From: Adhaeribacter pallidiroseus
Lineage (GTDB): Bacteria > Bacteroidota > Bacteroidia > Cytophagales > Hymenobacteraceae
Reading direction: 5' to 3'
Assembly (NCBI RefSeq): GCF_003340495.1
Contig: NZ_QASA01000001.1
Span: 3,100,001-3,164,000 of the forward strand
Length of the DNA stretch: 64,000 nt
This document shows, piece by piece, positions 45,155 through 60,163 of the stretch (position 1 is the first letter of the stretch; the number at the start of each line of letters is the position of its first letter). A program made the translations under genes and the position numbers. Below the pieces are notes generated by a model. The model was not told the origin of the DNA. It did not search any database and saw only the letters and a program-made list of their open reading frames with translations.

Positions 45155-46213
45155 ATGGATACGAAACAAATAAATTTAGGTCGGCTTAATAAAATACTAC
45201 TCGCGGTATTCCTGGTATCGTTGATGCTTTATTTAGGGAAAACTTTTTTCATTCCGCTGGCTATAGCGGCTTTTTTTGCCATGCTGTTGTATCCGGTTGT
45301 TTTAAAGCTACAACAATACGGTTTTAAAAAGGCCATGGCGGCTACGTTAGCTATCTTGCTATTATTAGCCTCGCTCAGTCTGTTGAGTACCCTGCTGTAT
45401 TTTACTATTTCGGATTTACAAAAGGATTTACCCCAAATGGAGGAAAAAATAAAGGAAAAAACCGACCGGCTGCAATGGTTACTTTCCCGAACCACCGATA
45501 TTTCGGAATATGAACAAGAAGCCATTCTTAAAAAAGAAAAGCCGAGCATTATAAAAGCCATTGGTAAATCCATTAAAAACTTTCTGATTAATAGCCTGTA
45601 TCTGTTGCTGGCCGTTTTCATTGTATTAACTTATACTTTCTTTTTGTTAGTGTACCGGCATAGAATTCACCATTTTTTCATTAAGATAAATCTGTTTCAT
45701 AATCGCGAAGAATCCCAGGAAGTACTTTACCGGATTACGCATGTGGTGCATGATTACCTCAAAGGCACCTTTCTGGTGATCTCGGTCTTAGCGGTAGTTT
45801 ACGCGTTAGGTTTTTGGGCCATTGGCCTGGAACACGTTATCCTTTTCGCGTTAATTACGGCTTTGCTGCGTTTGGTCCCTTATTTTGGTTCGTTTTTAGG
45901 CATTGCTTTCCCGATTGGGTTTGCTTTTCTCACCCAAGAATCTGTTTGGCCTCCCGTACTGGTACTCTTGTTTTTTATGGTAACCCAACTCCTCGAAGCC
46001 AACTTGCTAACACCTTACATTACCGGCTCGCGGGTAAAACTAAATCCCTTGGCAACCATTGTAGCTATTTTATTCGGTAACTTAATTTGGGGAGTGCCCG
46101 GCATGATCTTGTTCGTGCCTTTTTTGGCCATTTTAAAAATTATCTGCAACGAAATAACGGCCTTACAACCCTACGGCTACATTCTGGGAACGGAAGAGGA
46201 GAAAATAACATGA
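45155..46213 (+). CDS. AI-2E family transporter
   Basis: 352 residues with about seven or eight membrane segments in the usual family pattern: two N-terminal pairs, a soluble helical insert (about 85-130, KDLPQMEEKIKEKTDRLQWL), then a cluster ending with FGNLIWGVPGMILFVPFLAI. Members include the AI-2 exporter TqsA and Na+/H+ antiporters, so substrate cannot be told. Its stop overlaps the start of the VLRF1-type gene (ATGA), implying translational coupling. Confidence 0.9.
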   Translation: MDTKQINLGRLNKILLAVFLVSLMLYLGKTFFIPLAIAAFFAMLLYPVVLKLQQYGFKKAMAATLAILLLLASLSLLSTLLYFTISDLQKDLPQMEEKIKEKTDRLQWLLSRTTDISEYEQEAILKKEKPSIIKAIGKSIKNFLINSLYLLLAVFIVLTYTFFLLVYRHRIHHFFIKINLFHNREESQEVLYRITHVVHDYLKGTFLVISVLAVVYALGFWAIGLEHVILFALITALLRLVPYFGSFLGIAFPIGFAFLTQESVWPPVLVLLFFMVTQLLEANLLTPYITGSRVKLNPLATIVAILFGNLIWGVPGMILFVPFLAILKIICNEITALQPYGYILGTEEEKIT

Positions 46214-46899
46214 ACCGGTATTTATCCCAAGCTACTACCCGGGCAGTCGTAAAACAAATCCAGCAAGGTGCTTATCTTTACCAATACGATCACGAAAAAC
46301 ACCGGATTATTCTTCTGGATTCTTTTCAAAACGAATTGGTTTACTTGCGGCTCCCGATAGTAGTTCCGCCGCCCCAGGAGTTAGTAGCTGAAGCAGAAAA
46401 GCCGGTAAACTACATAATGTTGCTCATCCAATCCGGCAATTGCGCCATGGGTTATTTCGAAAACGGGCAAAATATAAATCATAAGGTTTTCCGGTCGTAC
46501 ATGGTCCGGAAAAAGCAAGGCACCAGCCAGATTAAATATTTAAAAACCAAAGGCAAATCGCGGGCGGGTTCGCGGGTACGGTTAGCCGAAACCAACGAGT
46601 TTTTTGAAAATATTAACGAACGGTTGCAAGAATACTTTGCGGCGCACCCAATACACCGCATTGCGCTGAGCTGCTCTAAAATTCTAATTCCGTATTTATT
46701 TAATTCTAAAGTAACTACACCTTTTGATAAACGCGACGAACGGATATATAAAATACCTAAACACGTTCCAACTCCTATTTACGAAGTAATGATGGATACG
46801 CACCAGTTTTTACTAAAAGGCGAACTTATTTACGAAGAAATCTACCAGCCCTTGGTGGATGAATTGCTAGGCTCCGCAACAGCCGAAACAACAGAGTAA
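46210..46899 (+). CDS. Vms1/ANKZF1-like peptide release factor (VLRF1)
   Basis: 229 residues from ATG 46210, which overlaps the transporter stop by four bases. The central region matches the catalytic segment of eukaryotic Vms1/ANKZF1: HKVFRSYMVRKKQGTSQ (91-107, compare HKTFHRYTVRKKQG and the GxxQ loop with its catalytic Gln) followed by SRAGSRVRLAETNEFFENI (117-135, compare SAGSSLRRYNE). VLRF1 proteins cleave peptidyl-tRNA on stalled ribosomal subunits using a GGQ-like Gln, here Q107. The Bacteroidota branch of this domain is known from sequence surveys but not, as far as I know, from function. N-terminal 60 and C-terminal 80 residues are extra. The link with a membrane transporter is unexplained. 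Confidence 0.85.
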   Translation: MNRYLSQATTRAVVKQIQQGAYLYQYDHEKHRIILLDSFQNELVYLRLPIVVPPPQELVAEAEKPVNYIMLLIQSGNCAMGYFENGQNINHKVFRSYMVRKKQGTSQIKYLKTKGKSRAGSRVRLAETNEFFENINERLQEYFAAHPIHRIALSCSKILIPYLFNSKVTTPFDKRDERIYKIPKHVPTPIYEVMMDTHQFLLKGELIYEEIYQPLVDELLGSATAETTE

Positions 46900-48819: not shown

Positions 48820-49209
48820 ATGATGCCCGAGAACCAATCCCGCCCTTCCCAAGTAAAAACCATCGAAGAATTTCTCTGGGGCAAGTCGGCCCACACCACG
48901 GACTTGTTTCATTATTTCGTAACGCAGTACCAATTATTAGCCGATATTACCGTGCGCCCGGCCAAAACCATGATTGGTATTGCTACGCCCCGCAAACGCA
49001 TTGCGTATATAACCCAATTAGGCCGCAACTTTATACACGTGTATTTCCCCTTTGAAAAGCCGTACCCCGATAATTTGTGTTTTCAGAAAATTGCCCAAGT
49101 GCCCGGCGATAGTCGTCAATTTAACCACCATCTGCGCTTGTTTTTTAAAGAAGACTTAAACGAAGAAGTGCAACAATTTATGTTACTGGCTTACCAATTA
49201 GGTTGTTGA
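48820..49209 (+). CDS. Conserved protein, DUF5655-like
   Basis: 129 residues without signal or membrane segment. TIEEFLWGKSAHTTDLFHYF, VRPAKTMIGIATPRKRIAYI, NFIHVYFPFEKPYPDNLCF and FNHHLRLFFKEDLNEEVQQF follow the general shape of DUF5655-type proteins (an acyl-CoA-binding-like or YdhG-like small fold; function unknown). An ATG at either codon 1 or 2 may start it. It stands alone. Confidence 0.65.
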   Translation: MMPENQSRPSQVKTIEEFLWGKSAHTTDLFHYFVTQYQLLADITVRPAKTMIGIATPRKRIAYITQLGRNFIHVYFPFEKPYPDNLCFQKIAQVPGDSRQFNHHLRLFFKEDLNEEVQQFMLLAYQLGC

Positions 49210-59426: not shown

Positions 59427-59599
59427 GCTTTAATATTTGTTGGTAAAGGGCCGGTAATACTTTTTTACATTATAAGCATTTTCTAATTCGTATTCCAAAA
59501 ATAGCATTTGCACTTTTGATTAATTTTTTAAAAAATTTACTACATCTGTTGGCTGGCTCCTCAACCAAGCCTTTTGTTGGTAATGAAGTAACCTTAGAT

Positions 59600-60163
59600 A
59601 TGAAATACTTACTCGTTGGCTTAGGTAATATTGGCCCCGAATACGCCAACACGCGCCACAACATTGGTTTTATGGTACTGGATTACCTGGCAAAAAAAAA
59701 CGAGGCTACCTTTGATACCGGACGGCACTCCTTTGTGACGGAAATAAAAACGAAAGGCCGCTCTTTTACCTTAGTAAAACCCACTACTTACATGAATTTA
59801 AGCGGCAAAGCCGTAAGTCATTGGTTGAATATTTTAAAAATTCCAGCTAACCAGATGCTCGTTATCACCGATGATTTGGCTTTACCATTTGGCAAATTGC
59901 GTATGCGGGCCAAAGGATCCGCCGGTGGGCATAACGGTCTGAAACACATTGAGGAAACGCTCGGCAGTAATGAATACCCGCGGTTGCGTTTTGGCGTGGA
60001 TGCCCAATTCGCCAAAGGCCGGCAGGTAGATTATGTTTTAAGTCCGTTTACCGCGGATGAACAAGTGGAATTGTCTCTCTTAATAGAAAAAGCGGCCGAC
60101 ATGAGTATCTCTTTTGGCACGATTGGTCTGGAACGCACCATGAACTTCTATAATACGAAGTAA
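59600..60163 (+). CDS. pth: Peptidyl-tRNA hydrolase
   Basis: 187 residues from ATG 59600 (MKYLLVGLGNIGPEYANTRH). The upstream in-frame extension of 28 codons lacks similarity, so this start is chosen. Catalytic H20 in NTRHNIGF and N10, plus KPTTYMNLSGKAV (Asn for tRNA 3' end) and DDLALPFGKLRMRAKGSAGG. It frees peptides from dropped-off peptidyl-tRNA. This window therefore also encodes a second peptidyl-tRNA-cleaving candidate, the VLRF1-type protein. Confidence 0.96.
   Translation: MKYLLVGLGNIGPEYANTRHNIGFMVLDYLAKKNEATFDTGRHSFVTEIKTKGRSFTLVKPTTYMNLSGKAVSHWLNILKIPANQMLVITDDLALPFGKLRMRAKGSAGGHNGLKHIEETLGSNEYPRLRFGVDAQFAKGRQVDYVLSPFTADEQVELSLLIEKAADMSISFGTIGLERTMNFYNTK

Follow-up and report, generated by a model that had tools for sequence, protein, structure and literature searches.

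The window, a stretch of 64,000 nucleotides of the Adhaeribacter pallidiroseus genome, contains a gene for a 229-aa protein that is assigned by its sequence to the bVLRF1 family, immediately downstream of a gene for an AI-2E family transporter (Table 1). As the first-pass annotation had stated, the stop codon of the transporter gene (TGA) overlaps the start codon of the bVLRF1 gene (ATG) as ATGA, and a classical peptidyl-tRNA hydrolase gene, pth, is found elsewhere in the window, apart from these two genes. The two motifs quoted in that annotation are both present in the translation: residues 91-107 read HKVFRSYMVRKKQGTSQ and residues 117-135 read SRAGSRVRLAETNEFFENI. A longer reading of the bVLRF1 gene would begin at a TTG codon at 46087; the ATG at 46210 was preferred and is taken as the start throughout. 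Farther downstream, a 129-aa ORF (48820-49209) has no Pfam match at E 0.001.

Table 1. Features of the bVLRF1 locus and the pth gene, in window coordinates
Feature	Position	Strand	Basis
AI-2E family transporter gene, 352 aa	45155..46213	+	PF01594, E 1.3e-55; adjacency survey
ATGA stop-start overlap, AI-2E gene / bVLRF1 gene	46210..46213	+	same overlap in 6/6 adjacent pairs
bVLRF1 gene, 229 aa plus stop	46210..46899	+	translation; Pfam PF18826, E 3.1e-29
Catalytic VLRF1 (eRF1 domain 2-like) domain, residues 68-203	46411..46818	+	Pfam match; same bases in whole-genome match; fold
Codons R100 to G104 (Vms1 R288 to G292), catalytic loop	46507..46521	+	R100 and G104 invariant in 87/87; Vms1 mutants (PMC5989216)
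Q107 codon, predicted catalytic Gln (Vms1 Q295)	46528..46530	+	alignments; invariant in 87/87 distinct sequences
Classical peptidyl-tRNA hydrolase gene (pth), separate locus	59516..60163	+	PF01195, E 1.9e-63, ORF residues 32-213

Family assignment and predicted structure

In a Pfam scan, the 229-aa protein matched bVLRF1 (PF18826) with an E-value of 3.1e-29 and 102.2 bits, against a gathering cut-off of 27. Both other listed families fell below their own cut-offs, and the weak second match was to baeRF family 10 (E 0.019, below cut-off). Given this E-value and the recurrence of the frame and the motif in 87 distinct sequences, the bVLRF1 match is not due to chance. The same scan of the protein detected neither the eRF1 codon-reading domain nor a Pelota-type domain, and neither a Rei1-type zinc finger nor ankyrin repeats above cut-off. 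The NCBIfam scan yielded weak matches only, including acVLRF1 (NF041024; E 0.065, 12.9 of 125 bits). The resemblance to the catalytic region of Vms1/ANKZF1, first proposed from the sequence alone, was recovered at the profile level: a single-sequence search against PDB placed Vms1 at the top with a non-significant E-value of 0.046, and a profile of 42 sequences matched Vms1 best (5whg, E 3.1e-10) over the catalytic region, with nothing besides Vms1 entries below E 0.5. Judged by sequence, the window protein is a member of bVLRF1, a VLRF1 family published in 2019.

The AlphaFold model, built on the same 42 sequences, has a mean pLDDT of 91.1 and a pTM of 0.85; its least certain part is the catalytic loop (residues 101-120, pLDDT 55-59), and one helix spans residues 116-145. 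In a Foldseek search against PDB, four Vms1 entries lead (E 1.2e-5 to 3.9e-5), followed by eRF1 and Balon, and the Vms1 matches are partial (TM by query 0.43-0.53, rmsd 12-22 A). The predicted fold is that of Vms1 and eRF1 domain 2, as anticipated by the first-pass annotation.

The protein is not new as a kind, because Burroughs and Aravind had already named the family and predicted its role in 2019. They defined bVLRF-1 as mostly present in Bacteroidetes, plus certain Heimdallarchaeota, and described prokaryotic members as standalone proteins occurring independently of other RQC components (PMC6514570). The terms AI-2E and RqcH do not appear in the main text of that article. The activity of the family is only predicted; no experimental study of bVLRF1 was found in the open-licence literature, with few subscription papers covered. 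What is new here is the distribution of bVLRF1 in the order and its separability from RqcH. The family matters also as the one from which eukaryotic Vms1 was proposed to descend (PMC6514570).

Conservation of the catalytic residues

Conservation was assessed in 87 distinct sequences, including that of the window, drawn from 114 loci with a match; the other members of the set are 32-74% identical to the window protein. Alignment with Vms1 equates R288, G292, Q295, H279 and Y285 with R100, G104, Q107, H91 and Y97, respectively, so that Q107 indeed occupies the position of the catalytic Gln, as had been suggested. All five of these residues are invariant (87/87), along with L111, G115, K116, S117, G120, S121, R122, R124, L125 and F131. 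The GxuQ motif, defined by its invariant Gly and Gln (PMC6514570), is present in the window protein as GTSQ. A stricter loop pattern, with S or A preceding the Gln, fits 84 of the 87 sequences, the exceptions being two with GKFQ and one (L075) in which the loop is one residue shorter. The conserved Arg in the post-loop helix that marks bVLRF1 has its counterparts in R122 and R124.

In yeast Vms1, according to PMC5989216, hydrolysis activity is lost in R288A and in the G292A/G293A double mutant and is strongly impaired by Q295L, G292A or deletion of S294; H279A, H283A, R284A and T286A grow like wild type, and Y285A is partly sensitive. Invariance alone is no proof of a catalytic role, because H91 is invariant and yet its yeast counterpart can be replaced (H279A) with growth like that of the wild type.

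Distribution among Bacteroidota

Genome searches were performed on samples of the window's family (120 genomes), order (271 genomes) and phylum (395 genomes). bVLRF1 was detected in 68 of the 120 family genomes, from four of the six genera (g1, g2, g3 and g6; none in g4 and g5), and in 68 of the 271 order genomes, spread over 29 of 110 genera. The phylum sample yielded six positive genomes (6/395), all from the window's own order. A separate scan of named species genomes returned 248 relatives; among the 80 of these that were listed are representatives of Adhaeribacter, Pontibacter, Rufibacter, Botryobacter, Sabulibacter, Marivirga, Fulvivirga, Nafulsella, Roseivirga, Echinicola and Litoribacter, and one metagenome bin labelled Flavobacteriaceae.

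Genomic neighbourhood

Wide flanks were examined at 61 loci, out of about 127 bVLRF1-positive genomes in the family, phylum and order samples. One locus (L113) begins at bVLRF1, so that its upstream neighbour is not in view, and contig ends truncate a few others. An AI-2E gene lies directly upstream of bVLRF1 in 6 of the 60 loci where an upstream gene can be seen, all in the window's GTDB genus, g1, where the adjacency occurs in six of the seven bVLRF1-positive genomes (the exception is G029). A. soli and A. terrigena (G007 and G001) belong to a different genus code, g2, and lack the pairing. The coupling to the transporter reported in the first-pass annotation is thus real within g1 but is not general, and the survey of the gene pair revealed no conservation across genera. 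Because the ATGA overlap is retained in all six adjacent pairs, even though the bVLRF1 proteins differ from that of the window by 26-34%, translational coupling of the two genes is likely in g1, but as a matter of local history. A role of AI-2E as a general functional partner was rejected, adjacency being limited to this genus; we regard the transporter gene as standing outside the mechanism, a neighbour in one genus that is probably translated together with bVLRF1.

AI-2E orthologues with 60% identity or more are present in at least 16 of the 120 family genomes. Among these 16, the gene adjoins bVLRF1 in six, shares its contig and strand in six genomes of genus g3, and is far from it in three; the remaining genome has no bVLRF1 match. 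In the six g3 genomes (G104, G088, G078, G057, G023 and G114), the distance is 3-32 kb, and AI-2E lies on the downstream side of bVLRF1 in five of the six, an arrangement that suggests an old shared neighbourhood.

Clustering of the neighbours was performed for 41 of the 61 loci, the other 20 being left out. The widest cluster is represented in just 12 of the 41 loci, so there is no general operon partner, and no conserved neighbour pointing to the ribosome was found among the clustered loci. In eight loci of family f2 (L067, L073, L078, L086, L088, L089, L094 and L095), three shared genes precede bVLRF1, encoding a putative HEAT-like protein, a protein of ~206 aa and a putative helicase-like protein of ~828 aa.

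Relationship to RqcH and other rescue factors

The NFACT_N domain of RqcH was matched in all 120 family genomes, including the 52 without bVLRF1, in 212 of the 271 order genomes and in 289 of the 395 genomes of the phylum sample. For comparison, rqcH was reported in 404 of 1,956 FCB-group genomes (Callan 2024, PMC11633108). Within the order, RqcH is present in 61 of the 68 bVLRF1-positive genomes and in 151 of the 203 others (Fisher P 0.007, ignoring phylogeny), a weak co-occurrence; the RqcH-negative order genomes listed include many of 0.7-1.9 Mb.

Seven bVLRF1-positive genomes of the order lack an NFACT_N match, and NFACT-R, sought in all seven, was not matched in any of them. Three are fragmented drafts (G630, G641 and G656); the other four (G437, G666, G722 and G726) are about 99% complete and belong to a single genus, g13, probably Roseivirga, in which two further genomes (G622 and G712) do have NFACT_N. 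In G622, rqcH is flanked on one side by an MBL-hydrolase gene and on the other by a convergent gene for a 478-aa protein. These two flanking genes directly adjoin each other in the four genomes, their aligned ends lying 14-70 bases apart, and rqcH is absent from the syntenic site (L204 compared with L228, L229, L231 and L238). bVLRF1 is intact in these genomes: three of the four are represented in the alignment set (L025/L079, L085 and L087), and the frame of the fourth is open, with no stops. Because bVLRF1 occurs without rqcH in four genomes and RqcH without bVLRF1 in 52 of 120, the two are separable in both directions, which suggests that bVLRF1 need not follow RqcH.

These observations bear on the possibility that bVLRF1 is a strict RQC factor, namely, a dedicated terminator of RqcH-driven Ala-tailing. 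Vms1 does the same for RQC in yeast (PMC5989216), RqcH accompanies bVLRF1 in most of the positive order genomes, and bVLRF1 was detected, in the phylum sample, only in the window's order, where RqcH is common. However, a factor of this kind would be present only together with RqcH, whereas the four near-complete genomes of g13 retain bVLRF1 after the loss of rqcH; moreover, all 52 bVLRF1-negative family genomes encode NFACT_N, and RqcH matches are also common elsewhere in the phylum sample, in classes that gave no bVLRF1. We therefore consider a strict RQC role unlikely. Of the first-pass proposal of a bacterial ribosome quality control factor, the VLRF1 membership and the predicted fold stand, and the strict RQC role is weakened.

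MutS2 was matched over nearly the whole model in all 10 chosen bVLRF1-positive genomes, and it remains where rqcH was lost and bVLRF1 was kept. An anticorrelation of ArfB with bVLRF1 was sought and rejected (ArfB in 40/68 versus 98/203 genomes; Fisher P 0.16, ignoring phylogeny). The window's genome encodes Pth and ArfB as well, so that a dedicated release factor is not obviously needed.

Several features of the rqcH loci were observed in passing. In the window's genome, an apparent frameshift close to a T6-A6 run divides rqcH (L060 1608-3313; G000:C1 about 3409107-3410812), with the NFACT_N and NFACT-R parts in different frames; the same-genus genomes listed have one open frame, and the split may reflect sequencing error, decay or frameshifting. 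At 12 of 23 rqcH loci, a gene for a PhnP-like MBL hydrolase is found nearby (an example is L060 69-1492), in one case with an intervening ORF; this gene persists where rqcH was lost. It is often preceded by genes for a 91-aa protein without a family match and a response regulator.

Proposed mechanism and alternatives

Because the predicted fold and the invariant loop occur together with the absence of a codon-reading domain, a release factor of the large-subunit A site fits best. We consider it probable, with some reserve, that stand-alone bVLRF1, as a bacterial relative of Vms1/ANKZF1, releases nascent chains from 50S-peptidyl-tRNA complexes. The protein would enter the vacant A site of a 50S subunit still holding peptidyl-tRNA, a complex that MutS2 may produce, for example, by splitting a stalled ribosome, and would bring the GxSQ loop, which contains Q107, into the peptidyl transferase centre. 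The nascent chain would then be freed without codon reading and without a GTPase, either by ester hydrolysis or by cutting of the tRNA 3'-end, the latter as reported for Vms1/ANKZF1. Family membership, the predicted fold, the conserved residues, the distribution in the samples and the occurrence without rqcH in some genomes are shown here; binding to 50S, the release activity and action after MutS2 are inferred.

The choice between the two chemistries defines another alternative, in which bVLRF1 acts not by ester hydrolysis but as a nuclease of the tRNA 3' end, and the released tRNAs need repair. Vms1/ANKZF1 has been described as cleaving the CCA end (PMC11317155), and the loop residues are shared with the window protein, but Burroughs and Aravind argue for hydrolysis (PMC6514570). 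The candidate repair partner lends no support either. ELAC1 has a role in tRNA repair, and the MBL-fold hydrolase was considered as an ELAC1-like partner and rejected, because all 16 chosen genomes have it whether or not they have RqcH, five of them being without an NFACT match. A nuclease of this kind appears improbable. The least probable alternative, which we rate as very unlikely, is a Balon-like role in hibernation or in blocking the A site, with no hydrolase activity: Balon belongs to the same superfamily and its entries are among the Foldseek matches, and baeRF family 10 is a sub-threshold Pfam match, but Balon has no GGQ motif and relies on N- and C-terminal domains to engage the decoding centre and EF-Tu (PMC10901736), whereas the window protein keeps the catalytic Gln, conserved in all 87 sequences, and has neither flanking domain by Pfam.

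A broader proposition can be put forward tentatively: in some Bacteroidota, a dedicated Vms1-type factor could clear MutS2-split 50S-peptidyl-tRNA without RqcH, constituting a tail-free branch of bacterial RQC. The genus in which some species lost rqcH, probably Roseivirga, would then supply natural rqcH knockouts as a test case. Its sister species, some of which have rqcH while others lack it, all keep the bVLRF1 frame open, so that the question can be tested directly.

Comparison with known systems

Balon and the baeRF hibernation factors appear to share the eRF1 domain 2 fold with the window protein, as judged from the model. Balon consists of three domains and has no GGQ motif (PMC10901736); the loss of the GGQ-type Gln and the presence of flanking domains, which characterize this type, are not seen in the window protein. 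Bacterial Pth, as a peptidyl-tRNA hydrolase, has a role like that predicted for bVLRF1 and, according to work cited in PMC11317155, frees Ala-tailed chains in B. subtilis; it belongs to a different Pfam family and is encoded by a separate gene in the window. acVLRF1 (NF041024) is placed in the same VLRF clade, with the motif GGxSQ, in PMC6514570, but the window protein matches it only weakly, far below its cut-off.

Closer similarity is found to Vms1/ANKZF1 (eVLRF1), with which the window protein has in common the predicted fold, the H-K-Y-R-KQG-x-S-Q loop and, within the eRF1-like domain, the catalytic Gln, Arg and Gly equivalent to Q295, R288 and G292; Vms1/ANKZF1 differs in having a Rei1-type zinc finger and ankyrin repeats, both absent from the window protein by Pfam. 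The closest known system is bVLRF1 (PF18826) itself: the score above the cut-off, the GxuQ motif, the post-loop Arg, the stand-alone gene and the occurrence in Bacteroidota all agree, and nothing essential sets the window member apart, its one peculiarity being the overlap with the AI-2E transporter gene.
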